A stretch of 64,000 bases of DNA, taken from the NCBI RefSeq assembly GCF_004336745.1, contig NZ_SJXD01000022.1, positions 62,001-126,000 on the forward strand, written 5' to 3'. Shown piece after piece: positions 2,920-61,834 of this stretch; position 1 is the stretch's first letter, and each line of letters starts with the position of its first letter. This stretch comes from Roseococcus sp. SYP-B2431 (GTDB lineage Bacteria; Pseudomonadota; Alphaproteobacteria; Acetobacterales; Acetobacteraceae). The position numbers and the translations under genes are program-made. The notes beneath the pieces were generated by a model. That model worked only from the letters and a program-made list of their open reading frames with translations, was not told the origin of the DNA and did no database searches.

Positions 2920-3723
2920 ATGGACAACCAGGGCGCCGAATCGCGCCGCATCACCCGCCACATGCCCGAGGATTTCGAGGGCGCCCGCCGCGCCGGTGCC
3001 CTGGCGGCCGCCTGCCTCGACATGATCACCGAGCATGTCCGCCCCGGCGTGACCACCGGCCATCTCGACCAGCTCTGCCACGACTTCATGGTCGAGCGCG
3101 GCGCGGCGCCGGCCACGCTGGGCTATCGCGGCTATACCAGGTCCTCCTGCATCTCGATCAACCACGTCGTCTGCCACGGCATCCCGGGCGAGCGCGTGCT
3201 GCTCGACGGCGACATCCTGAACATCGACGTGACGGCGCTGCTCCACGGCTGGCACGGCGATTCCAGCCGCATGTACGCGGCCGGCCAGATCAGCACCAAG
3301 GCGCGGCTGCTGATGGACGTGACCTACGAGGCGATGATGCGCGGCATCGCCGTCGCGAAGCCGGGGAACACCTTCGGCGACATCGGCCATGCCATCCAGA
3401 CCTACGCCGAGAAGCACCGCTTCACCATCGTGCGCGACTTCTGCGGCCACGGCATCGGCCGCAAGTTCCACGAGCCGCCGAACGTGCTGCATTTCGGCCG
3501 ACCGGGCGAGGGCGCGAAGCTGGCGCCGGGCATGTTCTTCACCATCGAGCCGATGGTGAATGCCGGCCGCCCCGAGGTGAAGATCCTCGACGACGGCTGG
3601 ACCGCCGTGACGCGCGACCGCAGCCTCTCGGCGCAGTTCGAGCACATGGTCGGCATCACCGAGACGGGCTGCGAGATCTTCACGCTCTCGCCGGGCGGGC
3701 TGAACAAGCCGCCGTATATCTAG
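2920..3723 (+). CDS. map: Type I methionine aminopeptidase
   Basis: Removes the initiator Met from nascent proteins in the cytoplasm. All five metal ligands of the pita-bread fold are visible: Asp103 (NIDVTALL), Asp114 (HGDSSRM), His177 (FCGHGIGR), Glu210 (TIEPMV) and Glu241 (FEHMVG). The 267-residue length is normal for a type I enzyme. I chose the ATG at 2920 (MDNQGAESRR) because the residues upstream are low-complexity and unlike the family. radC follows, an arrangement common in alphaproteobacteria. The stop codon adjoins a short copy of the dispersed hairpin repeat. Confidence 0.95.
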   Translation: MDNQGAESRRITRHMPEDFEGARRAGALAAACLDMITEHVRPGVTTGHLDQLCHDFMVERGAAPATLGYRGYTRSSCISINHVVCHGIPGERVLLDGDILNIDVTALLHGWHGDSSRMYAAGQISTKARLLMDVTYEAMMRGIAVAKPGNTFGDIGHAIQTYAEKHRFTIVRDFCGHGIGRKFHEPPNVLHFGRPGEGAKLAPGMFFTIEPMVNAGRPEVKILDDGWTAVTRDRSLSAQFEHMVGITETGCEIFTLSPGGLNKPPYI

Positions 3724-3766
3724 CCCTCAGACGCCGGGCAGCGCCGGCCGCTGTGCGGCCGGATGG
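3723..3766 (+). repeat. Dispersed two-hairpin element, copy A (short form)
   Basis: The left motif GCCCTCAGACGCCGGGC starts within the stop codon of map. It is joined directly to the conserved right hairpin: CCGGCCGC at 3744-3751 pairs with GCGGCCGG at 3755-3762 around a TGT loop, and GGAT follows. The variable middle hairpin and the TTGGCTT block of longer copies are absent, so this is a shortened member of the family. Orientation follows map transcription. No T-run follows, so it is not an obvious intrinsic terminator. Confidence 0.75.
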
Positions 3767-3841
3767 ACGGGAACTCGCTTAGCCCGTTGAAGCATGCCCT
3801 GGCGGGTGCGATCCTCCCCCGCCGCCAGGGAAAACCGCCGC

Positions 3842-4588
3842 ATGTCCGCCAAGCGAGGCCTCGACGAGGCCGGGGGCCTCTTCCCGATCGAGGCGCCGAA
3901 CGCCACGCCGAACTCTCCCCTGGGCGCCGAGGGCCATCGCGCGCGGATGAGAAAGAAGCTCATCGAGGCCGGCCCCTCGGCGCTGCTCGATCACGAGCTG
4001 ATCGAGATGGTGCTGTTCCTCGCCCTGCCGCGGCGCGACACCAAGCCCCTCGCGAAGCTGCTGCTCGCCCGCTTCGGCAGCTTCGCGGCCGCCCTCACCG
4101 CGTCCACGGCGGAACTCCGCGCCATCGAGGGCCTCGGCGAGGCGGGCATCGCGGCGCTGCGCACGGTGCAGGCGGCGGCGCTGCGGCTGGGCGAGGCGGC
4201 GGTGAGGAGCCAACCTCTGCTGAGCGACAGCGGCAGCCTCGCCGCCTACCTGACCGCCGCCATGGCGCGAGAGCGGACCGAGCATTTCCGCGTCCTCTTC
4301 CTCGACGTGAAGAACCGGCTGATCGCCGACGAGGTGATGGGCCGCGGCACGGTGGATCACACGCCCGCCTATCCGCGCGAGGTGGTGCGGCGTGCGCTCG
4401 AGCTGCACGCCTCTTCGCTGATCCTGGCGCACAACCACCCCTCCGGCGACCCGACGCCCAGCCCGGCCGACATCGCGATGACGCGCGACATCAAGGCGGC
4501 GGCCGCGGCGCTGGGGATCGCGCTGCATGACCACCTGGTCGTCGGGCGTGGGGCGCCCTTCTCGATGCGGGGCCAGGGGCTGTTGTGA
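3842..4588 (+). CDS. radC: RadC family JAMM/MPN domain protein
   Basis: The protein has an N-terminal helix-hairpin-helix-like region and a C-terminal JAMM metalloprotease-like domain. The diagnostic zinc motif HNHPSGDPTPSPAD is intact. The historical link of RadC to DNA repair was later withdrawn, and its biochemical role is unsettled. The ATG at 3842 (MSAKRG) gives 248 residues and fits the family. An ATG at 3794 in the same frame would add 16 residues that look like non-coding sequence. It lies downstream of map, with repeat copy A between them. Confidence 0.9.
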   Translation: MSAKRGLDEAGGLFPIEAPNATPNSPLGAEGHRARMRKKLIEAGPSALLDHELIEMVLFLALPRRDTKPLAKLLLARFGSFAAALTASTAELRAIEGLGEAGIAALRTVQAAALRLGEAAVRSQPLLSDSGSLAAYLTAAMARERTEHFRVLFLDVKNRLIADEVMGRGTVDHTPAYPREVVRRALELHASSLILAHNHPSGDPTPSPADIAMTRDIKAAAAALGIALHDHLVVGRGAPFSMRGQGLL

Positions 4589-4736
4589 CCGCCGTCCCCA
4601 AGGCACGGCCCTGGATCACGCCACCTTGAGCGCGAGGCCGCCTGCAGATGGGTTCCGTGGTGAACGCCGGAAGTCAGGGCTGACTCGGAAGGCGCCGAGG
4701 CCGTAGGATCGACCCTTCGGGAAAGATCGCCCTTCC

Positions 4737-5576
4737 TTGACCCTGACCGCCACGCCCCTGCTTCGCACCGACCTGGTCCGGGTCACGGACGTGCTCTGCG
4801 CGGCGGGGCCCGATTCGCCCTCGGTCGTCGAGCATCACACGCATCATTCGCTCGCCTTCGTCCGCGCCGGCAGCTTCGCCTGCCGCTGCGGGCGGGAGGA
4901 TTTCGACATGGTCCGCGGCTCGGTGCTGGTCGGCTCGCCCGGCCGCGAATTCACCTGCAGCCACATCCACCGCCCGCATGGCGACCGCTGCCTCTCCGTG
5001 CAGATCGCGCCGACCGCCGTTGACATGCTGGGCGGGGCGGAATGGGGCATCGGCACGCTGGCGCCCACGGCGGAGATGCCCGTGCTCGCCCGCCTCATCG
5101 AGGCGCGCGCCCGGCAGCGCCACCGCCTCGGGCTGGAGGAGGCCGCCCTCCTCGCCGTCGCGCGTTTCGGGCAGCTGGGCCGCCGCGCCCGCTCCGCCCG
5201 CCGCGCGCCCAACCCGCGCGAGCGGCGCCTCGCCGTCTCGGCCGCGCTCTGGCTGGAGGCGCAGGCCGGCGAGGAGACCAGCCTCGGCGAGGCCGCGGCC
5301 CAGGCCGGGCTCAGCCCTTTCCATTTCCTGCGGGTCTTTTCCCGCACCCTCGGCGTCACGCCGCACCAGTACCTGCTGCGCGTCCGGCTGGACCGGGCCG
5401 CGAGGCTGCTGGGCGAGACGGAGCTGCCGGTGACGGAGGTGGCCTTCGAGGCCGGCTATGCCGACCTCTCGAACTTCGTGCGCGCCTTCGGCCGCGCGGC
5501 GGGCATGTCGCCCCGCGCCTTCCGGCGCAGCGCCGACCGCAAGAATTTCCAAGTCTCCCCGGCCAGGGCGATCTAA
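4737..5576 (+). CDS. AraC family transcriptional regulator
   Basis: A 279-residue regulator. The C-terminal AraC domain has both helix-turn-helix motifs: GLSPFHFLRVFSRTLGVTP, then EVAFEAGYADLSNFVRAFGR. The N-terminal half is an AraC-type cupin effector domain (HHTHHSLAFVRAGSF). The start appears to be TTG at 4737; later in-frame CTG or GTG codons cannot be excluded. The VOC gene 29 bases downstream on the same strand is probably co-transcribed and may be its target. The 148 bases upstream hold no other gene or clear promoter. Confidence 0.85.
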   Translation: MTLTATPLLRTDLVRVTDVLCAAGPDSPSVVEHHTHHSLAFVRAGSFACRCGREDFDMVRGSVLVGSPGREFTCSHIHRPHGDRCLSVQIAPTAVDMLGGAEWGIGTLAPTAEMPVLARLIEARARQRHRLGLEEAALLAVARFGQLGRRARSARRAPNPRERRLAVSAALWLEAQAGEETSLGEAAAQAGLSPFHFLRVFSRTLGVTPHQYLLRVRLDRAARLLGETELPVTEVAFEAGYADLSNFVRAFGRAAGMSPRAFRRSADRKNFQVSPARAI

Positions 5577-5605
5577 CCCCTCCTCCGCAACAGGAGGCAC
5601 AGGCC

Positions 5606-5962
5606 ATGTACGATCATGTGGGACTCAAGGTTCGCGACACGGGCGCCGCCGTGCGGTTCTACGGCGCCGTCATGGGCGCGCTCGGGCACAGGCCGATCGC
5701 AGAGGATGGCACGGGCTACGGCTCGGGCGACGCGGCGCTCTGGCTGAGCGAGGACAGTACCGCGCCCGGCGGCGCCCATGTCGCCTTCCGGGCGGCGGAT
5801 CATGAGGCCGTCCGCCGCTTCCACGCGGCCGGGCTTGCCGCCGGCGGCAAGGACAACGGCGCCCCCGGCCCGCGGCCGAATTATGGGCCGACCTATTACG
5901 CCGCCTTCCTGATCGATCCGGACGGCAACAATGTCGAGGCGGTCTGCCTCAAGGCCGCCTGA
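5606..5962 (+). CDS. VOC superfamily (glyoxalase/bleomycin-resistance-like) protein
   Basis: A 118-residue single-module vicinal-oxygen-chelate protein. It starts YDHVGLKVRD and ends LIDPDGNNVEAV, with the usual ligand positions (His4 and the near-terminal Glu). An AGGAGG sequence precedes the ATG at 5606. Such small VOC proteins act as metal-dependent isomerases, dioxygenases or drug-binding proteins, so the substrate is unknown. It sits directly behind an AraC regulator, which suggests an inducible two-gene unit. Confidence 0.8.
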   Translation: MYDHVGLKVRDTGAAVRFYGAVMGALGHRPIAEDGTGYGSGDAALWLSEDSTAPGGAHVAFRAADHEAVRRFHAAGLAAGGKDNGAPGPRPNYGPTYYAAFLIDPDGNNVEAVCLKAA

Positions 5963-5990
5963 TCCAAGGGCGCGACCGGCGCCCCGGCCA

Positions 5991-6929
5991 TCAGGCCGCG
6001 GCGATCGCCGGCCGCGCGCCCAGGATATGGGCGATGGCATAGGTCAGGTCCGGCCGGTTCAGCGTGTAGAAGTGGAATTCGTCCACGCCATTGGCCTGCA
6101 GGATGCGGACCTGCTCGGCGGCCAAGGTCGCGGCCACCAGCCGCCGGGTGTCCACGTCCTCGTCCAGGCCCTCGAAGAGCCTCGCCAGCCAGTCCGGCAC
6201 CGAGGCGCCGCACATGGCGGAGAAGCGCTTCACGCTGGCGAAGTTGGTCACCGGCATGATGCCCGGCACGATCGGCGCCGTGATTCCCGCCGCGTGGCAG
6301 CGGTCCAGGAAGCGGAGGTAGACGTCGGTATCGAAGAAGTATTGCGTGACCGCGCGGGTCGCGCCGGCATCGATCTTCCGCTTCAGGAAATCGAGGTCGG
6401 AATCGGCGGAGAGCGCGGCCGGGTGGATCTCCGGATAGGCGCCCACGCTGATGTCGAAATCGCCGATCCGCCGCAGGCCGCGGACCAGGTCCTCCGCCTG
6501 GGCGTAGCCGCCCGGATGGGGCTCGTAGGTCGAGGCGCCGGCCGGCGGGTCGCCGCGCAGGGCCACGATGTGCCGCACGCCAGCCGCCCAATAGGCGCGG
6601 GCGACCTCGTCCACCTCCTCTCGCGTGGCGCCCACGCAGGTCAGGTGCGCGGCGGGCGTCAGCGAGGTCTCCCTCACCAGCCGCGACACCGTGTCGTGCG
6701 TGCGGGACCGGGTGGAGCCGCCCGCCCCGTAGGTGACGGAGACGAAGCGCGGCGCCAGCGGCTCGAGCCGGCGGATACAGGTCCAGAGATCGGCCTCGAG
6801 CTTCTCGTTCTTCGGCGGGAAGAACTCGAAGGAGAGCTTCGGCGCCGGCAGGCTCGATGGCGAGGGAAGTGTCCCGACCCGAGGGCCGGTCAGCCAGCGT
6901 TCCAGGGTATTGGGGGGCGAGGCATCCAT
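5991..6929 (-). CDS. metF: 5,10-methylenetetrahydrofolate reductase
   Basis: An FAD enzyme that reduces methylene-THF to methyl-THF for methionine synthesis. The 312-residue TIM barrel shows SFEFFPPKNE near the N-terminus, VSVTYGAGGSTR, ALRGDPP and VTQYFFD, all MetF hallmarks. The ATG at 6929 is preceded by a GGAAGGGG sequence. No metH lies in the window, but folD and folC, which share the pathway, do. I looked for a SAM or cobalamin riboswitch upstream and recognised none. The gene is divergent from mlaA. Confidence 0.95.
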   Translation of the reverse strand: MDASPPNTLERWLTGPRVGTLPSPSSLPAPKLSFEFFPPKNEKLEADLWTCIRRLEPLAPRFVSVTYGAGGSTRSRTHDTVSRLVRETSLTPAAHLTCVGATREEVDEVARAYWAAGVRHIVALRGDPPAGASTYEPHPGGYAQAEDLVRGLRRIGDFDISVGAYPEIHPAALSADSDLDFLKRKIDAGATRAVTQYFFDTDVYLRFLDRCHAAGITAPIVPGIMPVTNFASVKRFSAMCGASVPDWLARLFEGLDEDVDTRRLVAATLAAEQVRILQANGVDEFHFYTLNRPDLTYAIAHILGARPAIAAA

Positions 6930-7960: not shown

Positions 7961-7961
7961 A

Positions 7962-12240: not shown

Positions 12241-12273
12241 CGCCATCGGCCGGAATGGGCTTTCGAACGGAGA

Positions 12274-12381
12274 ATCGGGCCGCAAAGCGACCGGCGACGC
12301 CCGACCGACCTCCCGGCCCGGCGCGCCGTTCGCGCGGCGATGCCAAGCCGCCGGAGGCGGCGCCCGGCGTCCGACAGTATA
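12274..12381 (-). repeat. Dispersed two-hairpin element, copy G
   Basis: Read on the minus strand it starts at TATACTGTCGGACGCCGGGCG. The left hairpin follows (GCCGCC/GGCGGC, plus-strand 12347-12352 with 12356-12361), then TTGGCAT and an imperfect right hairpin (CCGGTCGC...GCGGCCCG) ending in GATT. Its left edge merges with the T-rich tail of the lipoprotein gene's terminator. It is the most diverged full-length copy. Confidence 0.65.
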
Positions 12382-12415
12382 AAATACCGGAGATCAGGCC
12401 CTTCCGGCCTGATCT
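12381..12415 (-). terminator. Intrinsic terminator of the 12414-12950 lipoprotein gene
   Basis: On the minus strand AGATCAGGCC (starting inside the TAG stop) pairs with GGCCTGATCT around GGAAG, a 10-bp stem. CCGGTATTTTATA follows, a T-rich tail. On the plus strand no T-run follows, so it serves the minus-strand gene. Confidence 0.75.
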
Positions 12416-14003: not shown

Positions 14004-14006
14004 TCC

Positions 14007-16993: not shown

Positions 16994-17069
16994 TGGTGGA
17001 GCTGAGCGGAATCGAACCGCTGGCCTCGTCATTGCGAACGACGCGCTCTACCAACTGAGCTACAGCCCC
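16994..17069 (-). tRNA. tRNA-Ala (anticodon CGC)
   Basis: On the minus strand a 76-base cloverleaf runs from GGGGCTG to a genomically encoded CCA. The anticodon arm CGTCG-TTCGCAA-TGACG places CGC at positions 34-36, reading GCG. The T-arm is AGCGG-TTCGATT-CCGCT. The acceptor stem has the G3-U70 wobble pair that defines alanine identity. It lies alone between the ModA-like gene and yggT. Confidence 0.96.
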
Positions 17070-23806: not shown

Positions 23807-25108
23807 TCAGGCGGAGGCGCGGCGGCCCGCGGATGGCGCGGCCTGCTCCCCATCCAGCTTCAGCACCTCGCCGGCCAGGTAAAGGCTGCCGCAGATCAGG
23901 ATCCGGCCCGGCGGCTCCTCGGCCATGATCCGCGCCAGGGCCGAGCGCAGGTCCGGTCCCGGCCGGGCTAGGCCGCCGCTGGCCGCGACGATCTCCTCCA
24001 CCGACATGGCCAGATGCTGGCCAGGCTCCCGCACGGCCGTGACGCTGTCGGCCAGCGGTAGGAGCGGCGCCAGGAAGCCTTTCGCCGTCTTGCCCTGCTT
24101 CATGCCGACCACGAGGTGCACCGGCCTGTCGCGCCATTCCACGAGGGTCTCGGCCAGCGCCGCCCCGGCCCCGGCATTGTGGCCGCCGTCAAGCCACAAT
24201 TCCCAGGGCGGCGGCGGCGCCAGCGCGCCCCCTAGACGCTGCATCCGCGCCGGCCACTCCGCGGCGGCGACCCCGCGCAGGATGGCCTGCTCCGTCAGCC
24301 AGATGGGATTCCAGGTCCGCATGGCGGCGACGGCGATGCCGGCATTGTCGGGCTGATGCGCCCCGCGAAGCCCCAACGGCGGCAGGTTCAACGGCCCCTT
24401 CGCGTCCCGGTAGAGATGCCCATTGGAGGTCGGCTCGATCCGCCATTCGCAGTCCCGAGCCAGCAGCGTGGTGCCCAGCGCGGCGGCGCAGGCCGAGATC
24501 ACGCCGAGCGCCGCCGGATCCTGCCGGCCGGTGACGCAGGGGATGCCCGGGCGGATGATCCCGGCCTTCTCGAAGGCGATCTTCTCCAGCGTGTCGCCCA
24601 GGAAATCCATATGGTCCATGGAGACGCTGGTGATCGCCGTCACGGCCGGCGACTGCACCACATTCGTCGCGTCGTAGCGGCCGCCGAGGCCCACCTCGAG
24701 CACGAGCATGTCGGCCGGGACGCGGCTGAACAGCAGCAGCGCGACCGCGGTGGTGATCTCGAAGACGGTGATGGGGTCGGCGCCGTTCACCTCCTCGACC
24801 TCCTCGAGCGCGGCGACCAGGAACTCCTCGGCGACGAGGTGGCCGGCCAGCCGGATACGCTCGTGGAAGCGCACGAGGTGCGGCGAGGTATAGACATGCA
24901 CGCGCCGCCCCGCCGCCTCGCCGATGGCGCGCAGGAAGGCGCAGGTCGAGCCCTTGCCGTTGGTGCCGGCGACATGGACCACGGGCGGCAGCCGCCGCTC
25001 GGGATGGCCGAGCTTGGCCAGCAGCTTGTGGAGGCGTCCCAGGCTGAGGTCGATCAGGACGGGGTGGAGCGCATGCAGCCGGTCGATGATCTCTTCCGAG
25101 CGGGGCAT
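23807..25108 (-). CDS. folC: Folylpolyglutamate synthase / dihydrofolate synthase
   Basis: Adds glutamate to dihydropteroate and reduced folates. The Mur-ligase-like fold has the ATP loop HVAGTNGKGST, then YTSPHLVRFHERI, FEITTAVALLLF, LEVGLGGRYDATNV and SMDHMDFLG; the C-terminal domain has LDGGHNAG. The length is 433 residues. It is downstream of accD, the usual accD-folC order, but repeat copy B fills the gap. The apparent Shine-Dalgarno (GAGGG, seven bases before the ATG) belongs to that repeat. Confidence 0.94.
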   Translation of the reverse strand: MPRSEEIIDRLHALHPVLIDLSLGRLHKLLAKLGHPERRLPPVVHVAGTNGKGSTCAFLRAIGEAAGRRVHVYTSPHLVRFHERIRLAGHLVAEEFLVAALEEVEEVNGADPITVFEITTAVALLLFSRVPADMLVLEVGLGGRYDATNVVQSPAVTAITSVSMDHMDFLGDTLEKIAFEKAGIIRPGIPCVTGRQDPAALGVISACAAALGTTLLARDCEWRIEPTSNGHLYRDAKGPLNLPPLGLRGAHQPDNAGIAVAAMRTWNPIWLTEQAILRGVAAAEWPARMQRLGGALAPPPPWELWLDGGHNAGAGAALAETLVEWRDRPVHLVVGMKQGKTAKGFLAPLLPLADSVTAVREPGQHLAMSVEEIVAASGGLARPGPDLRSALARIMAEEPPGRILICGSLYLAGEVLKLDGEQAAPSAGRRASA

Positions 25109-25110
25109 AC

Positions 25111-25236
25111 TTTATGCCCTCAGACGGCGGGTGGGTTGGGGCTGCTTGCCCCAACCGCCGCTTTGCCTTCGCCGCGCCGCGGGGGCGCCTGGCCCGGAGG
25201 TGGAGTGGGCGGCGCCGGCCGCAGTCGCGGCCGGAT
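25111..25236 (+). repeat. Dispersed two-hairpin element, copy B
   Basis: It starts TTTATGCCCTCAGACGGCGGG two bases from the folC start codon. The left hairpin is GGTTGGGG (25134-25141) paired with CCCCAACC (25149-25156). The block CTTTGCCTTCGCCGCGCC follows, then the right hairpin CCGGCCGC-AGTC-GCGGCCGG ending in AT. On the minus strand its left edge gives CTGAGGGC seven bases before the folC ATG. Confidence 0.8.
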
Positions 25237-25262
25237 TTCCCTGGGATCGCTCCCGGACCATC

Positions 25263-26135
25263 TCAGGCGGCCGCCGGCACGGGTTCTCCTTCGGCGTCCC
25301 TCAGCAACCGGATCAGCCGTCCGAGCGTGGCGCGCATCTCGCCGCGCCTGACGACCATGTCGAGGATGCCGTGCTCCAACAGGTATTCGGCCCGCTGGAA
25401 GCCCTCCGGCAGCTTCTCCCGGACGGTCTGCTCGATGACGCGCGCGCCGGCGAAGCCGATCAGCGCGCCGGGCTCGGCGATCTGGATGTCGCCCAGCATG
25501 GCGAAGCTGGCCGTGACGCCGCCCGTCGTCGGGTCGCAGAGCACGACGAGGAAGGGCAGGCCGGCGTCCTTCACCATCTGCGTCGCGATCACGGTGCGCG
25601 GCATCTGCATCAGGCTCACCGCGCCCTCCTGCATGCGGGCGCCGCCCGAGCTCGCGAAGACGATCAGCGGCGCGTCCTGCAGGACGGCCAGCCGCGCGGC
25701 CGTCACGATCGCCTCGCCCACGCCGGCGCCCATGGAGCCCGCCATGAAGGCGAATTCGAAGGCCGCGACGACGGCGCGCTGCGCCTCGATGGTGCCATGG
25801 CCGACCAGCACCGCGTCATCCATGCCGGACTTCGCCTGGGCGTCGCGCAGGCGCTCCGAATAGCGGCGCTGGTCGCGGAAGCGCAGCGGATCGGCGGGCG
25901 CCTTGGGGAGCTCGATCTTCTGCCAGCCCTCGTCCAGGGTCGCGTCGAGCCGCTGCCGCGCCGAGAGCCGCATGTGGTGACCGCAATGCGGGCAGACGCG
26001 GAGATTCTTATCCAGATCCGTCTGGAAGATCATCTGCTCGCAGGAGGGGCATTTGTGCCAGAGATTCTCCGGCACCTCGCGGGAGCCGAAAAGCGTCTTG
26101 ATCTTGGGCAGAGCCCACTCGGAAATCCAGTTCAT
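25263..26135 (-). CDS. accD: Acetyl-CoA carboxylase carboxyltransferase subunit beta
   Basis: The beta subunit of the carboxyltransferase that makes malonyl-CoA with AccA. The N-terminal zinc ribbon is present (CPSC and CPHC, from about residue 29), followed by the crotonase-like core with FASSGGARMQEGAVSLMQMP and PTTGGVTASFAMLGD. The ATG at 26135 (MNWISEWALPKIK) gives 290 residues and matches relatives. The frame runs open upstream, but that stretch is repeat copy C, which supplies a GAGGGC six bases before the ATG. Confidence 0.94.
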   Translation of the reverse strand: MNWISEWALPKIKTLFGSREVPENLWHKCPSCEQMIFQTDLDKNLRVCPHCGHHMRLSARQRLDATLDEGWQKIELPKAPADPLRFRDQRRYSERLRDAQAKSGMDDAVLVGHGTIEAQRAVVAAFEFAFMAGSMGAGVGEAIVTAARLAVLQDAPLIVFASSGGARMQEGAVSLMQMPRTVIATQMVKDAGLPFLVVLCDPTTGGVTASFAMLGDIQIAEPGALIGFAGARVIEQTVREKLPEGFQRAEYLLEHGILDMVVRRGEMRATLGRLIRLLRDAEGEPVPAAA

Positions 26136-26140
26136 GTCTC

Positions 26141-26250
26141 TGCCCTCAGGCGCCGGAGGCCGGGCTCGCCGGCCGGGGCTCCGCGCCCTGTGAGGGCCGC
26201 GCCAGGCGGGAAGACCGGTCGCGGCGCGCCGGCCGCAGTCACGGCCGGAC
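26141..26250 (+). repeat. Dispersed two-hairpin element, copy C
   Basis: It starts TGCCCTCAGGCGCCGG five bases from the accD start codon. The left hairpin is GGCCGG (26158-26163) with CCGGCC (26169-26174). GGGCTCCGCGCC replaces the TTGGCTT block. The right hairpin is CCGGCCG-CAGTCA-CGGCCGG. It lies between the divergent accD and PBP1a genes, so it may overlap the accD promoter. Confidence 0.75.
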
Positions 26251-26367
26251 GCTGCATCATCGTTCACGATCTGACATGACGGCGCTTGCCGTGCGGGTCA
26301 AGCGATGTTGCGAAAGGTGCGCAACACGGCGCTACAACGCGCGACAGGCCCATGCTAGGGAGGAGCC

Positions 26368-40705: not shown

Positions 40706-40728
40706 CAGTATCGGGGAGCCTCCAGCGA

Positions 40729-40838
40729 ATCCGGCCGCACAGCGGCCGGCGCGCCGCGACCAGCCTGCCGACTTGCACGCCCCGACAGGGCGCGAAGCCA
40801 AGGCCGCGGACGCGGCCGCCCGGCATTTGAGAGCATAA
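40729..40838 (-). repeat. Dispersed two-hairpin element, copy D
   Basis: Read on the minus strand: TATGCTCTCAAATGCCGGGC, then the left hairpin GGCCGCG/CGCGGCC (plus-strand 40802-40808 with 40811-40817), CTTGGCTTCGCGCC, and the right hairpin CCGGCCGC-TGT-GCGGCCGG ending in ATT. Its left edge runs into the T-rich tail of the trxA terminator. Confidence 0.8.
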
Positions 40839-40880
40839 TAAAACCAGCTTCTAAAATTGCTTTTCAGGCAATTTTAGAAG
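40838..40880 (-). terminator. Intrinsic terminator of trxA, built from the end of the gene
   Basis: On the minus strand CTTCTAAAATTGC (last sense codons of trxA) pairs with GCAATTTTAGAAG over 13 bp around CTGAAAA, which contains the stop. CTGGTTTTATTATG follows. The stem is unusually AT-rich for this genome. Confidence 0.85.
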
Positions 40881-41193
40881 CGATCCAGTCCTTCATCTGG
40901 CTGCGCGGCATGGCACCGACCTTGGTGTCCACCGGCTTGCCGTCCTGGAACAGGATCATCGTCGGGATGCCGCGCACCGAGTAGTTGTTCGGCGTCATCG
41001 GGTTGTCGTCGATATTGACCTTCGCGATGGTCAGCTTGCCCTGATACTCCTGGGCAATCTCGTCCAGGATGGGCGCGACCATCCGGCAGGGGCCGCACCA
41101 TTCGGCCCAGAAATCCACCAGCACGGCGCCCTTCGCCTCCAGCACGTCCTGCTTGAAGCTGTCGTCGCTCACGGCCTTGGTCAGTTCGCTCAT
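40864..41193 (-). CDS. trxA: Thioredoxin 1
   Basis: A 109-residue cytoplasmic disulfide reductase with the redox site WCGPC (Cys33, Cys36) in FWAEWCGPCRMVAP and the cis-Pro loop GIPTMILF. It is the last gene of the tsaE-amgK-murU-addB-addA-trxA array, 51 bases after addA. Its final codons form one arm of its terminator. Confidence 0.96.
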   Translation of the reverse strand: MSELTKAVSDDSFKQDVLEAKGAVLVDFWAEWCGPCRMVAPILDEIAQEYQGKLTIAKVNIDDNPMTPNNYSVRGIPTMILFQDGKPVDTKVGAMPRSQMKDWIASKIA

Positions 41194-47600: not shown

Positions 47601-47699
47601 CGCCGCCGCCAGCCGCTCGCCGGTGCCCAGCCGCGCCAGCGCGCCGCGCGCCAGCATCGGCAGGAAAGGCAGCCCCGGCGCGATGGAGAAGAGCTTCAC
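44682..47699 (-). CDS. addB: Double-strand break repair nuclease AddB
   Basis: About 1005 residues with an inactive helicase-like N-terminal half and a C-terminal RecB-type nuclease (DYGNLIHSTIHRFL, LRILDYKTGTVPSA). It also has the AddB mark LLGALDETVWPQ (ILGALDETVWP). I place the start at GTG 47699, which forms a GTGA overlap with murU like other junctions in this array. TTG at 47705 is an alternative that adds two residues. Confidence 0.94.
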   Translation of the reverse strand: MKLFSIAPGLPFLPMLARGALARLGTGERLAAATILLPTRRAARALQAAFLREAEAPALLLPRMRALAGLSVEDADELALPELLRLPPAVDPLRRQAVLAGFAGKRAPSLGGPPTAEHAWALGAELGRLLDEIALEEAEPIPQDPELLEHLWLERLDRLAPDKLAIHWQITTSFLKPVVEEWQGWLHTQRLLDIGVRRVLALRAQREAWEREPPPGVVIAAGIGMGGTVPAAADLLKTIATRLPEGAVVLPAEDAATAALPFEALFEAPTHPFAGQRIMLRRMGATMADAAPWPKGSASEGSSDRSALLGTALLPAGHLEPWQDRDAARWKGALDGLSRIEASDSQHEAGAVALALRGALERPGARAALITPDRDLARRVAAELPRHGILADDSAGQPLSDTPPGIFLRLIAHLAAGECGPVPLLSVLKHPLCAAGWDRADWLATVQLLERAVLRGPAPPPGLDGLRMALAGSRDARAVERIAPLLEALEAALGPFHALPHNVLRPPADLLAEHLEAAEALAGTPELPGGLRLYAQAEGEALARHLAALAPAMAELPPLAPAEWPALFEAALAQGVTRAPRISRGRPDAAHPQVEILGLLEARLLDFDCVILGALDETVWPQAADPGPWMSRPMRREFGLPSPELRIGRVAADFFLAASSAREAVLSRAARRGGTPSVPARWLTRLDTFLAGQERGLVVAKNPCADWAPLLDQPAAVTPWPRPAPRPPAGARPHRLTVSDVATLIADPYAFYARRILGLSPLDPLEQEPGAADYGNLIHSTIHRFLQGLPQHWPGEAAAKPVWDAAADWALADATLRPAIAALWKPRLARIGAYLRGMEAQQRGALLATWVECKAKLDIARPRGTVTLEARADRVDRKSDHTLRILDYKTGTVPSARQVRDGTAPQLPLEALMAERGAFQGVPEGTVSSLEYWRLTGAAEPGEVIVPKLEIPEAIAVAERALHRLADDFLLGDAPFLAHPHPGRQAAPDYQHLARTAEWSLEGEE

Positions 47700-48421
47700 C
47701 GCCAATGGCTGAGCAGCCCGGCGCGCAGCCGCCGCTCCGTGCGGGCGAGGTCCGAGGGGGTGGAGAGGTGGAACCAGGCGCCGTCATGCACGAGGCCGTA
47801 GAGCCGGCCGGCCCCGATCGCGCGGTCGAAGCAGCGGTTGAGGCTGAAGCGGCCCTCGGGCTCGGACACGACGAGGGCGGGCGCCATCACCTGCACGCCA
47901 CCGAAGATGAAGGGCGCGACCTCGGCGCCGTTGGGCCGCCGGAGCCGGCCGGCGCCGTCGAGGAAGAAGTCGCCGCGGCCCACCTCGCCCTCGACCTGCG
48001 AGGTGCGGACCAGCAGCAGCAGCGCGTCCATGCGCGCGGGGTCGAAATACTGGGCGAGCAGGGCCAGCGCCGGCTTCGGCCCGTCGAGCCAATAGGCGTC
48101 GCCATTCACCACGGCGAAGGGCTCCTCGCCCAGCCGCGGCAGGGCGCGGCGGAGGCCGCCGCCGGTCTCCAGCAACTCCGGCTCCAGCTGCAGGCGCAGG
48201 CGGGGCGGCGTGCCCTCGCGCGCGGCCAGGGCCTCGGCCACGCGCGGCGCGCACCAATGCGCGTTCACCACGGCCTCCTCCACCCCGGAGATGGCCAGCC
48301 GGTCCAGCGCATGGTCGAGCAGCGACCGACCGAGCAGGGGCAGCAGAGGCTTGGCCGTATCCGCCGTCAGCGGCCGCATGCGCTGGCCGAGCCCAGCGGC
48401 GAGGACCATGGCGTGTTTCAT
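47696..48421 (-). CDS. murU: N-acetylmuramate-1-phosphate uridylyltransferase-like protein
   Basis: A 241-residue sugar-nucleotidyltransferase with AMVLAAGLGQRMRPLTADTA and KPLLPLLGRSLLDHALDRL. With AmgK it forms the MurNAc-salvage route to UDP-MurNAc known in Pseudomonas, which bypasses MurA. Pairing with the kinase gene supports MurU over a generic NTP transferase. The Shine-Dalgarno (GAGGG) six bases from the ATG lies in repeat copy E. Confidence 0.87.
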   Translation of the reverse strand: MKHAMVLAAGLGQRMRPLTADTAKPLLPLLGRSLLDHALDRLAISGVEEAVVNAHWCAPRVAEALAAREGTPPRLRLQLEPELLETGGGLRRALPRLGEEPFAVVNGDAYWLDGPKPALALLAQYFDPARMDALLLLVRTSQVEGEVGRGDFFLDGAGRLRRPNGAEVAPFIFGGVQVMAPALVVSEPEGRFSLNRCFDRAIGAGRLYGLVHDGAWFHLSTPSDLARTERRLRAGLLSHWR

Positions 48422-48426
48422 ACTTC

Positions 48427-48562
48427 CGCCCTCAGGCGCCGGGCGTAGATTTTCCCGCCCTCAAGCGCCGGGCGGCGGCTCCGCCGCCTTGGCTTGCGCC
48501 GCGCCACAGGCGCCCCGGGCCAGCATGCCGGTGGGGCGGCGCCGGCCGCCTTGCGGCCGGAT
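48427..48562 (+). repeat. Dispersed two-hairpin element, copy E (duplicated left end)
   Basis: Two left ends occur in tandem: CGCCCTCAGGCGCCGGGCG and GCCCTCAAGCGCCGGGCGG (from 48457). Then come the left hairpin GGCGGCGG/CCGCCGCC (48471-48478 with 48481-48488), CTTGGCTTGCGCCGCGCC, and the right hairpin CCGGCCGC-CTT-GCGGCCGG ending in AT. It fills most of the gap between amgK and murU. Confidence 0.8.
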
Positions 48563-48581
48563 GGTTCTTGCAGGGATGCGC

Positions 48582-49526
48582 TCACGCGGGGTTCCTCCGC
48601 AGCGCGGGCGGCACATGCCTGTCGAGGAAGCGTGCGAGCGGGGCTGCGGCCTCATGCGCCAGCGCGCCGTCCAGCAGCGCCCAGCAGCGCGGGCCATGGG
48701 CGAGGTAGTGCGGCTTGCCGTCGCGCCGATCGAGGCGCACCCAGAGCGCCGCCACCCGCAGGTGCCGCTGGGCGCCATGCACGGCCATCGCGGCGTGCAG
48801 ATCCGCGGCGCCAAGGTCTGGGCGATCCGCCAGGTACTCGCGGATCGCCGCCTCGCGCAGCGCCGGGGGCACGTCGCGCCGCGCATCCTCGACCAGCGAG
48901 ACCAGGTCGTAGACGGAATTGCCGATCGCCGCGTCCTGGAAGTCGATCAGCGCCATGCCGCGAGGCGTGGGGATGAGATTCGCGGGGAAGAAGTCGCGAT
49001 GCACGATGCCCTGGGCGGCGAAGGGCGCCAGCATCTCACGGATCGCGGCGTCGAGCGCCGCGTGCACCGCGTCGGAGGGCGGCGCGCCGAACACCGCCGG
49101 CCACCACCATTCCAGGAAGGTCGCGGCGGTGGTGCGCGACATGGCTGCCGCATCCCAGGCGGGCAGGCCCTCGGGCGGTGGCGCGGCGTGCAGCCGCGCC
49201 ATGCTGCGTGCGGCGTCGAGGTAGAGCGGGGCCGGCTCCGCGCCGGCATCCAGCGCCTCGGCCATGCTGGCGGTGCCGAGATCCTCGACGAGCGCCAGGT
49301 TTTCCGCCTGCTCCACTGCGAGGATGGCGGGCGCCGGCACGCCGATGGCGTCCAGGTGCCGCGCCACGCGCAGGAAGGCCGCGAGATAGCCCGCATCCGG
49401 CGTCTGCATCAGCAGGGCGCCGCGCGGCCCGCCGCTCAGGCGGGTGTAGCGCTTGCTGGCGTCGCCCGGCATCGTCTCCCGATGCGCCGCGCCGTATCCA
49501 TGGGCCTCGAGGAAGCGCGCGCTCAA
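48582..49526 (-). CDS. amgK: Anomeric N-acetylmuramate/N-acetylglucosamine kinase-like (APH fold)
   Basis: A 314-residue aminoglycoside-phosphotransferase-fold kinase with catalytic IVHRDFFPANLIP and metal-binding MALIDFQDAAIG. AmgK phosphorylates MurNAc at C1 for MurU. The start is TTG at 49526 in a TTGA overlap with the tsaE stop. Context (tsaE upstream, murU downstream) is the standard arrangement. It is separated from murU by 160 bases filled by repeat copy E. Confidence 0.87.
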   Translation of the reverse strand: MSARFLEAHGYGAAHRETMPGDASKRYTRLSGGPRGALLMQTPDAGYLAAFLRVARHLDAIGVPAPAILAVEQAENLALVEDLGTASMAEALDAGAEPAPLYLDAARSMARLHAAPPPEGLPAWDAAAMSRTTAATFLEWWWPAVFGAPPSDAVHAALDAAIREMLAPFAAQGIVHRDFFPANLIPTPRGMALIDFQDAAIGNSVYDLVSLVEDARRDVPPALREAAIREYLADRPDLGAADLHAAMAVHGAQRHLRVAALWVRLDRRDGKPHYLAHGPRCWALLDGALAHEAAAPLARFLDRHVPPALRRNPA

Positions 49527-58020: not shown

Positions 58021-58525
58021 TCTGCCCGGCAGTGGTTTTGCCGCTGCCGGGCTTTCGGATGTCGAGATCGTCTTCGCGGCGCCCGGCTGGAGGGGGGCCG
58101 TGCCCCGCGCAGAGGCCCTGGCGCGCCGCGCCGTCGAAGCCGCCCTGGCGGACCAGCGCACTTCCGGCCACCTCACCCTCCTCCTCACCGACGACGCCGA
58201 GATCCGCCGGCTCAACGGCGGATTCCGCGGCAAGGAGAAGGCGACCAACGTCCTCTCCTTCCCTGCCCCCTATGGCAGCCTGACGCTGGGCGACCTGGCG
58301 CTCTCGCTCGGCGTGGTGAAGCGCGAGGCCGCCGCCGAGGGGCGCCGAATCGCCGCGCATTACGCCCATCTCATCGTGCATGGCGTGCTGCACCTGCTGG
58401 GCCATGACCACCTCGCCGCCGGCGAGGCCGTGACGATGGAGCGGGCGGAGGCGCGCATCCTGCACCGGCTCGGCCTGCCCAATCCCTGGCGCCCGGGCTG
58501 GACCCGGGCCGGGTGGGCCGCCTGA
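58004..58525 (+). CDS. ybeY: Endoribonuclease YbeY
   Basis: A 173-residue zinc endoribonuclease for 16S rRNA 3' maturation and ribosome quality control. The zinc site is [11 protein letters not shown] (His126, His130, His136) and the conserved NVLSFP segment is present. AAGGAG precedes ATG 58004, which lies 17 bases inside phoH. It ends in a TGATG overlap with corC. Confidence 0.94.
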
Positions 58526-59415
58526 TGCCCTCCGACCATCCCCCAAGGAACGACGTGATCCGCCGCCTTCGCACCCTTTTCGGCCGGCGCGAGGAAAGCC
58601 TGCGCGACCGCGTCGAAGAGCTCATCGACGCGCCGGACGAGCTGGAGACCGACGCCCGCGCCGATTCACGCACCCTGGGCCCGCACGAGCGCGCGCTGCT
58701 CGGCAACGTGCTGAAGCTGCGCGGCGCGACGGCCTACGACGTGATGGTGCCGCGGGCCGACATCATCGCCCTGCCCTCCGAGCTCACGCTGGAGCAGGCG
58801 CTGCAGGCCGTGCAGCGCGAGGGCCACAGCCGCTATCCGGTCTATCAGGGCCAGCTCGACGACGTGCTGGGCATGGTCCATATCAAGGACGTCTTCGCGG
58901 CGGTCGGACGGCAGGCGCCGTTCAGCCTGCGCGCGATCCTGCGCAAGCCGCTGCTGGTGGTGCCGAGCGTCTCGGTGCTCGACCTGCTGCTGCGCATGCG
59001 CGAGGCGCGCATCCATATGGCGCTGGTGGTGGACGAGTATGGCGGCATCGATGGGCTGGTGACCATCGAGGACCTCGTCGAGACCATCGTGGGCGACATC
59101 GCCGACGAGCATGACGAGATCATGGGTCCGCAGATCGTCGAGCGCGCCGAGGGCGTGTTCGAGGTGGACGCCCGGACCGAGATCGACGCCTTCGAGGACA
59201 AGATGGGCCCGATCCTCACTGAGGAGGAGCGCGGCGCGGACATCGACACGGTGGGGGGGCTGGTGCTGAAGCTCGCCGGCCGCGTGCCGGCCCGGGGCGA
59301 GATCTTCACCCACAGCTCGGGGCTGGAGTTCCGGGTGCTCGACGCCGACGCCCGCCGCATCCGGCGGCTGCGCGTGCGGCGGCCGGCGGCGGACGGGGCC
59401 CAGGCGGCGGAGTAG
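58525..59415 (+). CDS. corC: CorC/HlyC-type CBS-domain protein
   Basis: A 296-residue soluble protein: two CBS domains (about 55-175, with VMVPRADIIALP and VVDEYGGIDGLVTIEDLVE) and a CorC_HlyC transporter-associated domain (about 195-285). It lacks the membrane DUF21 domain. Its role in Mg/Co homeostasis is inferred from E. coli YbeX. In this cluster it follows ybeY as in many proteobacteria. Confidence 0.92.
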   Translation: MPSDHPPRNDVIRRLRTLFGRREESLRDRVEELIDAPDELETDARADSRTLGPHERALLGNVLKLRGATAYDVMVPRADIIALPSELTLEQALQAVQREGHSRYPVYQGQLDDVLGMVHIKDVFAAVGRQAPFSLRAILRKPLLVVPSVSVLDLLLRMREARIHMALVVDEYGGIDGLVTIEDLVETIVGDIADEHDEIMGPQIVERAEGVFEVDARTEIDAFEDKMGPILTEEERGADIDTVGGLVLKLAGRVPARGEIFTHSSGLEFRVLDADARRIRRLRVRRPAADGAQAAE

Positions 59416-59513
59416 TGTCGGGGGTGGTGCGCGGCGGAACGGGCCGGATCGGCGGTTCCGCCGCCTCCCCTGCCCCCATGCCGGCTTCCGGCGATCCGGG
59501 CTATAGCCGCGGC

Positions 59514-61064
59514 ATGGCATCGCTCCTCGCCCGACTGTTCGCCCCCCTGGCTACCCGGCCCCCGCTCACCGCCTTTCTGCTGGGCCTGGCCTCCGTGCTG
59601 GCGCTGCCGCCGGTCTATGCGGTGCCGGTCCTGCTCTTCACCATTCCCGCATTCCTCACCCTTATCGGCCGGGCGACGAGCTGGCGGCAGGCGGCCTGGC
59701 TGGGGCTCCTCTACGGCTTCGGCTATAATCTCGCCGGCTTCTACTGGGTGACCCACGCCATCCTGACGGATGTGGCGAAGTTCTTCTGGCTCGTGCCCAT
59801 CGCGGCGCCCGGCCTTGCCCTGCCCATGGCCGTCTACACCATCCTTCCCGCCGTCTTCGCCTGGCGGGTCGGGCCGGGCTGGCCGCGCGTGATCGGCTTC
59901 GCTGGCGCATGGGTCGTGGCCGAGTTCCTGCGCGGCTGGCTCTTCACCGGCTTTCCCTGGAACCTGATCGGCACGGTCTGGGCCTTCCGGCCGGAGCCCA
60001 TCCAGCTCGCCAGCGTCATCGGCGTGCACGGCCTGTCCTTGCTGACGATCCTCCTCGCGGGATTGCCCATCCTGCGCAGCCGCAGGGCCAACCTCGGCGG
60101 CCTCGTCGTGCTCGCGCTCTGGGTGGGCTTCGGGATCTGGCGTCTGCAGGCGATCCCGCCCGCCGAGATGCCCGTGCGGATCGTGCTGGTCCAGGGCAAC
60201 GTCGCGCAGGACGTGAAGTGGGACACCTCGCAGCGCCTGCCCATCTTTCAGCGCTACATCTCGCTGACCGGCGAGGCCGCCCGCGCCTCCGGGGCCTCGC
60301 ATCCCGGCCAGCCCGTGCTGGCCATCTGGCCCGAGACGGCGAGTCCCTTCCTGCTCGCCCAGGATCCCGACGCGATGCGCCTCGCCGCGCAGGCCCTGCC
60401 GCCGGGCGGCCTGCTGTTGGCCGGCACCGTGCGTGCGGAGTGGAACGCCGAGGGGCGGCTCTCGCGCCTCTACAACAGCCTCGTGACGCTGAATCCCGAG
60501 GGTCAGGTCCTGGGCGTCTTCGACAAGGCGCATCTCGTGCCCTTCGGCGAGTTCATGCCCTTCGGCGGGCTGCTGCCGATCCGCCTCGTGACCGGCGGCG
60601 TCGACTTCTCCGCCGGTCCGGGACCGGGCGCGCTGCCGCTGCCGGACGGCCTTCCCTCACCCGGCCCGCTCATCTGCTACGAGGTGATCTTCTCCGGCCA
60701 GGTCGTCGGCGCCGAGCGTCCGGCCTGGCTGCTCAACATCACCAACGACGCCTGGTTCGGCCTCTCGGCGGGCCCCTTCCAGCATCTGGCGACGGCGCGG
60801 CTGCGCGCGGTCGAGGAGGGGTTGCCCATGGTGCGCGCCGCGCAGACGGGCATTTCCGCCGTCTTCGACGCCACCGGTCGGCAGGTGGCCCGGCTCGGCC
60901 TGGGCGCGACGGGCACCCTCGAATCGGCGCTGCCGGCCGCCCTCGCACCCACGTTCTTTGCCGAGGGCGGGCTCTGGATCCCGCTCGGCCTTTCCGCGTT
61001 CTCGCTGATAACCTCCGTTCTTTTCGGGAGGTTCCGGCGCTCCACCCCACCTCGCATTCCATGA
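59514..61064 (+). CDS. lnt: Apolipoprotein N-acyltransferase
   Basis: The last step of lipoprotein maturation at the inner membrane. It has about six N-terminal transmembrane helices and a C-terminal nitrilase domain with the triad Glu274 (WPETASPF), Lys338 (DKAHLVPFGEF) and Cys388 (ICYEVIFSG). I chose ATG 59514 (MASLLARLFAP); in-frame starts at 59415 and 59478 would add a Gly/Ala-rich leader. It would serve the lipoproteins in this window (MlaA and others). Confidence 0.93.
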   Translation: MASLLARLFAPLATRPPLTAFLLGLASVLALPPVYAVPVLLFTIPAFLTLIGRATSWRQAAWLGLLYGFGYNLAGFYWVTHAILTDVAKFFWLVPIAAPGLALPMAVYTILPAVFAWRVGPGWPRVIGFAGAWVVAEFLRGWLFTGFPWNLIGTVWAFRPEPIQLASVIGVHGLSLLTILLAGLPILRSRRANLGGLVVLALWVGFGIWRLQAIPPAEMPVRIVLVQGNVAQDVKWDTSQRLPIFQRYISLTGEAARASGASHPGQPVLAIWPETASPFLLAQDPDAMRLAAQALPPGGLLLAGTVRAEWNAEGRLSRLYNSLVTLNPEGQVLGVFDKAHLVPFGEFMPFGGLLPIRLVTGGVDFSAGPGPGALPLPDGLPSPGPLICYEVIFSGQVVGAERPAWLLNITNDAWFGLSAGPFQHLATARLRAVEEGLPMVRAAQTGISAVFDATGRQVARLGLGATGTLESALPAALAPTFFAEGGLWIPLGLSAFSLITSVLFGRFRRSTPPRIP

Positions 61065-61098
61065 CCAGATAATTTATATATTGAGATTGGGAAAAATA

Positions 61099-61127
61099 TT
61101 GACGCTGCGGCGACTTGAGGCTATGGC
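61099..61127 (+). promoter_or_regulatory. Candidate sigma-70 promoter upstream of the XRE gene
   Basis: TTGACG (61099-61104), a 17-base spacer, then TATGGC (61122-61127), within an AT-rich island. A second candidate closer to the gene is TTCACG (61178-61183), an 18-base spacer, then TATACA (61202-61207). These are sequence matches only. Confidence 0.4.
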
Positions 61128-61210
61128 CGCGATACAGGTCAGGGCCACGATGCAGCCTGCAGGTGTGTTCCAGGCCGTTCACGCATAAAAAATGCAACCC
61201 CTATACAGCT

Positions 61211-61258
61211 CCTGAGCTTAGGGATTTTCAGGTCGGGCCTGAGCCGAGGGGATTCAGG
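61211..61258 (+). promoter_or_regulatory. Two tandem CCTGA/TCAGG dyads, putative operators
   Basis: Two similar sites, 61211-61232 and 61238-61258, each start CCTGAGC and end TCAGG, with 12 and 11 bases between the half-sites. Their interiors also match (TTAGGGATT against CGAGGGGAT). They overlap the leader just ahead of the XRE gene. This would suit an autoregulated repressor. Confidence 0.55.
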
Positions 61259-61282
61259 TGGATGGTTTCAGTGAGAGAAGCG

Positions 61283-61732
61283 ATGTCGAGCGGCGGAAGC
61301 ACCGAACGGGCAGAGAAGGAACATCGTCCGAGCCCGATCGACGTGCATGTCGGGTCGCGCGTCCGCCTTCGCCGCACGCTTCTGGGCATGAGCCAGGAGC
61401 GCCTGGGCGAGGCGCTCGGCCTCACCTTCCAGCAGGTGCAGAAATACGAGCGCGGTGTGAACCGGATCGGCGCCTCGCGCCTCTTCGACCTCTCGCGCGT
61501 TCTCGACGTGCCGATCAGCTTCTTCTTCGACGACATGCCGGGCACCGTCGGCGGGAGCCAGAGCTTCGCCCGCCGCGTTTCCGGCTTCGCCGAGGCGCAG
61601 GATGGCTTCGAGGACGACACGCTGCATCGCCGCGAGACGCTGGAGCTGGTGCGGGCCTATTACCGCATCTCCGATCCCGCCGTGCGCAAGCGGGTCTTCG
61701 ACCTCATCAAGGCGATGACGCCGGCTGAATAA
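61283..61732 (+). CDS. XRE-family transcriptional regulator (PraR/PhrR-like)
   Basis: A 149-residue protein with an N-terminal helix-turn-helix (HVGSRVRLRRTLLGMSQERL, then FQQVQKYERG). A conserved C-terminal part follows (FFFDDMP; ETLELVRAYYRI; FDLIKAM). This arrangement matches alphaproteobacterial PraR/PhrR-type regulators of stress and symbiosis genes. ATG 61283 has GAGAGAAG upstream; ATG 61262 is an alternative that adds seven residues. It has its own promoter region, tandem dyads and terminator. Confidence 0.85.
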   Translation: MSSGGSTERAEKEHRPSPIDVHVGSRVRLRRTLLGMSQERLGEALGLTFQQVQKYERGVNRIGASRLFDLSRVLDVPISFFFDDMPGTVGGSQSFARRVSGFAEAQDGFEDDTLHRRETLELVRAYYRISDPAVRKRVFDLIKAMTPAE

Positions 61733-61762
61733 ACCCGCTTCGCGGATTATTCAGGGTCTTTC
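61725..61762 (+). terminator. Intrinsic terminator overlapping the XRE stop codon
   Basis: CTGAATAA (61725-61732, includes the TAA stop) pairs with TTATTCAG (61747-61754). An inner CCGC/GCGG stem sits around TTC. GGTCTTTCAT follows, a weak T-rich tail. Confidence 0.65.
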
Positions 61763-61834
61763 ATGCCCTCATATGCCGGGCGCGCGCTCAGGGCGCCTGG
61801 CTTGCCCTCGGTGCGCCCGGCCGGCAGTCGGATT
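61761..61834 (+). repeat. Dispersed two-hairpin element, copy F (degenerate right end)
   Basis: It starts TCATGCCCTCATATGCCGGG right after the XRE terminator. The left hairpin is GGCGC (61779-61783) with GCGCC (61793-61797), then TGGCTTGCC. The right end is reduced to GGCCGGCAGTCGGATT, losing most of its stem. It lies between convergent genes. Confidence 0.65.

Follow-up and report, generated by a model that had tools for sequence, protein, structure and literature searches.

We describe a dispersed repeat element of about 110 bases in a 64,000-nucleotide stretch of the Roseococcus sp. SYP-B2431 genome (contig NZ_SJXD01000022.1, positions 62,001 to 126,000; hereafter the window), where an initial annotation had proposed seven intergenic copies. 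All seven are present at approximately the proposed positions, with E-values of 2.5e-8 to 1.9e-22 under a covariance model (R1) trained on 58 full copies drawn from the host and named relatives, one training row (L013) being itself the window copy at 48448. They are the top seven of 128 matches at E<=10, the eighth scoring 18.6 bits. The proposed layout was about right in its positions and had to be corrected in the strand of two copies (those at 12271 and 40726 lie on the minus strand), the start of the unit, a third paired region and a truncated tandem half. Within the window, the left block of the element is not above chance (an 18-mer with three mismatches gave 10 matches vs 6.3 expected, and 12 of 100 shuffles were as high), and we therefore used whole-genome and full-model evidence. 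Judged from sequence comparison, the element is a real, strongly structured repeat family, dispersed between genomic sites and with a head common to several alphaproteobacterial families.

The leftmost copy (3714-3767, plus strand; 45.1 bits, E 2.4e-9) has its left block joined to the right hairpin by an internal deletion, and its CCCTCA comes immediately after the TAG at 3721-3723 that ends an M24 peptidase gene (called 2920-3723; Pfam). A full copy at 12271-12387 (minus; 89.2 bits, E 8.3e-20) carries the left hairpin GCCGCC-TCC-GGCGGC. The accD-folC junction holds another full copy (25107-25239, plus; 66.1 bits, E 2.5e-14) with a long left stem, GGTTGGGG/CCCCAACC; on the minus strand this copy ends TGAGGG-CATAAAGT-ATG of a folC-like gene (23807-25108; Pfam Mur ligase domains), and the junction is empty in a relative, G012. 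The leader of accD itself (25263-26135, minus; Pfam) contains a full, diverged copy (26133-26253, plus; 40.9 bits, E 2.5e-8). After the stop of trxA (40864-41193, minus; Pfam thioredoxin) lies a full copy at 40726-40843 (minus; 93.5 bits, E 7.8e-21), adjoined by a stop-spanning hairpin and T-run (40834-40881, minus); in this hairpin the last codons of trxA pair over 14 bp with an inverted copy of themselves. A truncated left half (48419-48446, plus; 17.0 bits, E 0.011), reading TGAGGG-CGGAAGT-ATG on the minus strand into a nucleotidyltransferase gene (47696-48421), stands in tandem with the best-scoring full copy (48448-48565, plus; 100.3 bits, E 1.9e-22), at the junction of that gene with a phosphotransferase gene (48582-49526). 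The two form a gene pair (47696-49526; Pfam) which we take to resemble the MurU/AmgK cell-wall recycling genes. The last copy is partly deleted (61756-61836, plus; 41.9 bits, E 1.4e-8) and lies between convergent genes; the hairpin 5' of it is the gene end CTGAATAA with its inverted copy, and its site is likewise empty in G012.

Read from left to right, the unit comprises a T-run, the block TGCCCTCA-RR-CGCCGGGCG, a first hairpin (H1), TTGGCTT, a second paired region (H2), a third hairpin (H3) and the end GGATTC. It starts earlier than had been annotated, with the T-run at -9 to -5 and then TG, ahead of CCCTCA. Of the hairpin plan originally set out, H1 and H3 stand as described, while H2 and an outer helix of H1 had been missed: H1 has a 6 bp stem and a TCC loop plus an outer GCC/GGC helix; H2 is a long-range stem closing about 36 variable nucleotides, with arms CGCCGC...GCGGCG or CGCGCC...GGCGCG; and H3 is CCGGCCGC-NNN-GCGGCCGG, followed by ATTC. 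The same head also carries other tails: GGATCGC-TGAA-GCGATCC with a TATTC-loop hairpin is found in Roseococcus and in a single host copy (L005), Falsiroseomonas has additional GC hairpins, and the tails seen in other alphaproteobacterial families are quite unlike these. Loci L331-L350 (G078, G231, G046, G042, G263 and others) carry the head in such families with palindromic tails, several ending GGTAT, and the left hairpin TGATCG-RAAC-CGATCA is found in G046 and G078. Shortened copies account for five of the 83 host matches (<65 bases, such as window 3714-3767), and tandem arrays occur with exact periods of 93, 117, 138 and 144. In Roseococcus sp. SDR (L074, 1319-1653 and 1685-2060), a tmRNA gene of the permuted type usual in Alphaproteobacteria is followed, some 30 bases on, by a four-unit array of period 93. 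Two tandem copies in the host (L205/L234, C1:154644-154914) are each followed by a near-identical intrinsic terminator, CCCGTCGCCAG-TTCT-GGCGACGGG with a T-run, so that the terminator is part of what was duplicated.

A search of the host genome with the covariance model returned at least 83 copies at E<1e-3 (85 matches at E<=1), which is a lower bound, scoring having covered 150 of the 16,646 candidates from a first look. In the same genome the left block CCCTCANNCGCCGGGC occurs exactly 43 times vs 0 for the reversed control. The family is thus dispersed genome-wide, as the initial annotation had proposed, and is neither restricted to the window nor a product of GC-rich intergenic composition. 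The exact left block was found in 29 of 60 genomes of a sample of relatives, among them all 20 congeners, and in 47 of 289 genomes of a sample of the class (host included in both); many carriers in the class sample have one match only, as the reversed control does in some genomes. Nine class-sample genomes hold at least 15 exact left blocks: G078 (198), G231 (71), G210 (58), the host and G263 (43 each), G046 (20), G079 and G306 (16 each) and G042 (15). Among the matches listed, carriers belong to Roseomonas, Roseococcus, Rubritepida, Falsiroseomonas, Neoroseomonas and other Acetobacteraceae, with single records from Niveispirillum, Rhodospirillales and Hyphomicrobiales. The flanking DNA of the host matches records from Roseococcus and Rubritepida at about 86-89%. 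A plasmid collection gave two partial Niveispirillum matches, and a phage collection gave none. The family in G046 may be active now, as three copies there read nearly identical.

The pairing of the stems was assessed in an alignment (A2) of 58 of 157 pattern copies, those with the standard right hairpin followed by AT and a length of 98-104, a choice that favours well-formed copies and biases the H3 figures upward, though rows were not selected by H1 or H2. Across 1160 cells of A2, 98.7% are paired vs 83.2% after shuffling (none of 500 shuffles was as high), double-sided changes are seen at 13 of 20 pairs, the covariation score is 0.330 vs 0.073 shuffled, and sliding the partner by 1-3 columns lowers pairing to 31-52%. 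The earlier claim that the left stems differ between copies yet stay paired was therefore upheld. Of 182 distinct copies, 164 have a perfect H1, with 22 different inner stems, as counted with a pattern that fixes the outer letters and loop type. In 185 copies, most of them fetched by a pattern fixing GCC, the outer helix is GCC/GGC in 167, GGC/GCC in 13 and other in 5, and it is never crossed (no GCC with GCC, no GGC with GGC).

Such compensatory change, read initially as a sign of selection on structure or of a structured mobile unit, need not reflect selection on RNA, given the near absence of G-U intermediates: changed cells in A2 number 3 one-sided against 129 double-sided, and mismatches in the 182 distinct H1 stems are GT in 3 and AC in 7, with no excess of G-U. 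With changes that are double-sided and skip G-U steps, the pairing is accounted for no less well by DNA hairpins or templated repair than by selection on RNA. In templated repair, quasi-palindromes corrected from the other arm by template switching would keep stems perfect and would also make inverted copies of gene ends, of which exact examples of 14-18 bp (L230, L233) would be hard to reach by point mutation. This process would not in itself account for the left block, linkers and loop, which are conserved in the consensus of the 58 copies while the stems vary, a pattern suggesting that something recognises the layout; moreover, the arms of H2, about 36 nucleotides apart, are probably too distant for simple hairpin correction. 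As the reason why the stems stay perfect, in place of selection on paired structure, templated repair is possible but on balance doubtful.

We then placed the copies relative to genes called by a simple codon-based caller that uses no Shine-Dalgarno (SD) signal, taking 83 of the 85 host matches and leaving out the two weakest (E 0.006 and 0.5). A second host listing of 88 matches was reduced by five repeats from overlapping loci and one fragment, and copy C28:17686 was added to it from the model search. None of the 83 copies lies inside a called gene, though 88% of those loci is coding. The neighbouring genes are both on the plus strand at 32 copies, both on the minus strand at 31, convergent at 18 and divergent at 2. 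Across 400 kb of the host, divergent gaps account for 34% of the intergenic bases and 16% of all gene pairs. Likewise, of 140 copies in a set that overlaps the 83 in its host copies, none is inside a gene and six are in divergent gaps. With few exceptions, therefore, copies occupy gaps downstream of at least one gene, and in many cases they fill most of the gap. Such a distribution could arise with a selfish or inert repeat whose insertions are purged by selection from genes and promoters, the SD-like and T-run features being accidental: the counts seen, none of 83 inside genes and two between divergent genes, are those that purging alone would give. Shortened copies, common in this family (5 of 83 under 65 bases), and the tandem arrays are in keeping with it.

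Read leftward, on the minus strand, the left edge is TGAGGG; GAGG pairs with the anti-SD sequence. A called start lies 6-9 nucleotides from the left edge in 13 of 33 host copies with a minus-strand gene to the left, as it does in 20 of 51 in the set of 140. These 13 are drawn from 21 starts within 40 nucleotides (P 7e-9 vs a uniform distribution, the 6-9 nucleotide range having been picked once the distances were known). Three copies in the window, those at 25107, 26133 and 48419, show this TGAGGG-N6-9-ATG arrangement. We infer that TGAGGG is used as an SD sequence by the adjoining gene, in which case the element would replace the ribosome-binding site of the gene it precedes. A peak at this spacing is not expected of an inert repeat.

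Read rightward, the same edge begins close behind genes, with 47 of the 50 copies that follow a plus-strand gene starting no more than 45 nucleotides past its stop. TTT occurs within 12 nucleotides before CCCTCA in 53 of 83 copies, vs 1.8% of 12-mers in 400 kb of genome (coding included), and it does so in leader-type copies too (13 of 19), far above the genomic rate, which makes the T-run part of the unit. Among the 47 copies lying within 45 nucleotides of a plus-strand stop, ten have a perfect stem of at least 8 bp spanning the stop codon, compared with 2.5% or 5.6%, by length scanned, of 355 element-free stops, a generous contrast. The trxA locus, usable in 19 of 21 genus genomes, offers a direct comparison of nine genomes with the element and ten without. 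In seven of the nine, the last codons pair with an inverted copy of themselves in a hairpin across the stop, after which come the T-run and then the left block; none of the ten element-free loci has such a hairpin, three of them having another hairpin further down and no T-run. The arms track the codons of the species in question (pairing in 93 of 97 cells, double-sided change at four positions), as counted from hand-typed arms, MAFFT having misplaced two rows. In the host, the predicted terminator at 40834-40895 folds at -20.7 kcal/mol (z -5.2). Position and covariation thus support the T-run as the putative U-tract of an intrinsic terminator, whose stem would pair the last codons of the gene with their inverted copy. 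That these arms follow the coding sequence also speaks against accidental T-runs in an inert repeat.

Comparison of orthologous sites indicates that the unit is mobile in the broad sense suggested by the initial annotation, given filled and empty sites, tandem arrays and copies on both strands. Among 15 host loci in 400 kb, 11 have a syntenic counterpart in G012 and four do not. Four of the 11 counterparts hold no more than 22 bases in place of the element (247874, 128229, 87107 and 123756 on contig C12); in the other seven, two hold 42 and 75 other bases, one an apparent remnant and four the element, one of these degenerate. By eye, an element occupies the accD-folC gap in 2 of 19 loci and the gap 5' of the MurU-like gene in 2 of 17 orthologous loci, with none in the 260 bases upstream in the other 15. 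The accD leader, by contrast, contains the element in 13 of 19 loci, one more being cut by a contig end and five lacking it, and in an alignment (A3) of 12 of these 13 copies the H1 stems differ among species and stay paired in most. Filled and empty sites together with the old accD leader copy show that the family both spreads and is kept. Upstream of accD, two element-free genomes (L182, L183) retain GGCGCGAAGCGAGGGCATG ahead of the start, apparently what a deletion left behind.

Retention of a paired accD leader in so many loci is a further argument against an inert repeat, which, taken with the spacing peak and the terminator arms, we regard as unlikely. The same retention is what would favour a vertically inherited cis-regulatory RNA, a riboswitch-like leader rather than a repeat. 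Copies stand, however, on either side of unrelated genes, occur on both strands and in tandem, and face empty orthologous sites; no Rfam family matches; and none of 21 genomes has CsrA, a protein weighed because it might bind GGA loops. This explanation is very improbable. A CsrA-binding leader was accordingly rejected as a candidate (PF02599 in 0 of 21 genomes), as was a known structured RNA family, no Rfam 15 family having matched the window copies or five element loci. In those five loci, Rfam at E<=1 returned the tmRNA of L074 (two models) and four weak matches far below gathering scores.

The initial annotation had also raised the prospect of a repetitive extragenic palindromic (REP) unit with a REP-associated tyrosine transposase (RAYT), and this enzyme did not materialise: the Y1 transposase family PF01797 has 0 matches in the host, and is found in 1 of 21 genus genomes and 3 of 13 other element-bearing genomes. 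Hairpins near both ends, a T-rich left flank and a location at terminators do resemble REPs moved by RAYTs and derivatives of group II introns or IS200/IS605. Set against this likeness, together with the scarcity of PF01797, are the absence of RVT_1 from the host (it is present in 7 of 21 genus genomes) and of any Rfam intron match at E<=1 in the five element loci. A group II intron derivative was rejected on the latter grounds, and descent from any of these systems is, in our estimation, improbable. A miniature inverted-repeat transposable element has terminal inverted repeats, a target-site duplication and an autonomous partner with the same ends. Here the left (TGCCCTCA) and right (GGATTC) ends are unlike each other, and short ATGA or CAT repeats at two junctions coincide with stop or start codons, so that we claim no target-site duplication. 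Six pairs of left blocks lie 600-4000 bases apart among the fetched loci. The one pair inspected is on a phage or prophage contig (L139, IMG/VR), where heads at 2656 (plus) and 4271 (minus) are inverted and 1.6 kb apart; by eye, with no family search run, the frames between them look like phage tail-region genes, and no transposase was seen.

The element answers to the broad REP-like kind, with many copies (83), all extragenic (0 of 83 in genes), and palindromes that covary, and we consider it a new repeat family of this known general kind. REPINs and BIMEs are inverted pairs of one REP with a RAYT. The element instead strings together distinct hairpin modules whose order is fixed, and the host has no RAYT. 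It does share with REPINs and BIMEs (PMC3116915, PMC8049555) the presence of several hairpins per dispersed unit and long-term retention. According to PMC3733652, a GTAG REP is a 20-40 bp palindrome that bears an unpaired GTAG tag on one side, and CGTC REPs have a CGTC tag, an 8-9 bp stem starting with A/T pairs, a 4-5 base loop and a CCA tail, occur mainly in Alphaproteobacteria, apparently without a dedicated transposase, and are missing from some families, Acetobacteraceae among them. Both kinds resemble the element in being short palindromic repeats, mostly extragenic, with paired stem changes, and differ from it in that each is a single 20-40 bp palindrome and the element, at about 110 bases, has three or more hairpins. 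In the consensus of the 58 copies there is no GTAG at the hairpin foot and no CCA tail, and in nearly all copies the H1 stem consists of G and C alone and has a TCC loop. The letters CGTC do appear on the minus strand of copies in which RR is GA (GGCGTCTGAGGG), but beside a GC-only stem. The same source notes that REPtrons can be missing by deletion, so that a past role of a RAYT is possible.

RU and ERIC-like enterobacterial sequences (PMC2759123, PMC2229807) are comparable small mobile intergenic units of about 100-170 bp. By description, the element differs in that no terminal inverted repeats are seen in it. Rhizobium-specific intergenic mosaic elements (RIMEs) are alphaproteobacterial, about 100 bp long and composed of two palindromes, and the element is similar by that general description (alphaproteobacterial, about 100 bp, palindromic). 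What would set it apart is that the plasmid collection, which includes rhizobial megaplasmids, gave only two partial Niveispirillum matches. That no named element with this layout is known agrees with the searches made: Rfam gave no match, no open-licence paper was found that describes the unit (titles and abstract starts, figures excluded), and open-licence paper text contains none of six 16-base forms of the left block (subscription papers and figures lying outside that search).

Taken together, we favour, with a probability of about 0.6, a non-autonomous dispersed repeat resembling REPs or miniature inverted-repeat transposable elements, whose left edge would act outward in both directions and whose mobilisation would not depend on Y1. 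What comparison shows is that copies stand at many unrelated places in transcribed gaps, that orthologous sites can be filled or empty, that copies suffer deletions and form arrays, and that stems stay paired as their sequence changes. Copies would survive where they are harmless or useful, plausibly because the left edge works outward both ways, its predicted SD and terminator roles being supported by position and covariation; movement would rely on an enzyme other than a Y1 (RAYT/IS200) transposase encoded in the host genome. Several points weigh against this reading. The folding energy of two copies is weakly below that of shuffled sequence (z -0.4 to -2.5 over both strands). Twenty of the 33 copies with a minus-strand left gene lack the 6-9 nucleotide spacing, and in four of those 20 the called start is 1 nucleotide away, a distance too short for an SD. 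Some of the 355 control stops lie inside operons and need no terminator. At trxA, two of the nine filled sites (G012, G007) have no stop-spanning hairpin, the arms were set in register by hand, and the Fisher P of 0.0007 for filled vs empty sites overstates the case, since the nine filled genomes are related. Furthermore, no mobilising enzyme, clean target-site duplication or base-exact boundary was found, and most copies are diverged, so that mobility at the present day is no more than putative.

If the non-autonomous, outward-acting repeat is the right description, it would be a family with a readable logic for survival inside operons, its left end leaving the adjoining gene functional in either arrangement. 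Since one genus offers junctions with and without the element, its insertion, its retention and the way terminators grow out of coding sequence can be tested directly. A family that reaches 198 exact left blocks in a single genome (G078) while most tested carriers show no recognised mobiliser (PF01797 in 1 of 21 genus genomes and 3 of 13 other carriers) points to a mode of spread yet to be recognised. A wider extension, which we put forward tentatively and think unlikely to hold in full, would make this an alphaproteobacteria-wide modular mobile family, with the head CCCTCA-RR-CGCCGGGCG-H1-CTTGGCT and exchangeable tail hairpins, serving as a portable gene-boundary cassette: in one direction it would give the next gene a structured leader and ribosome-binding site, in the other a U-tract that the host would complete into a terminator by copying the gene's last codons in inverted form, these then coevolving with the coding sequence.

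Two minor observations complete the survey. A second SD at the right end of the unit was considered and rejected, the G-rich positions 8-11 after H3 (51-56% G each in the 58 copies) being too weak to claim. A tRNA gene at 16997-17069 on the minus strand is the sole Rfam 15 match in the window at gathering scores.

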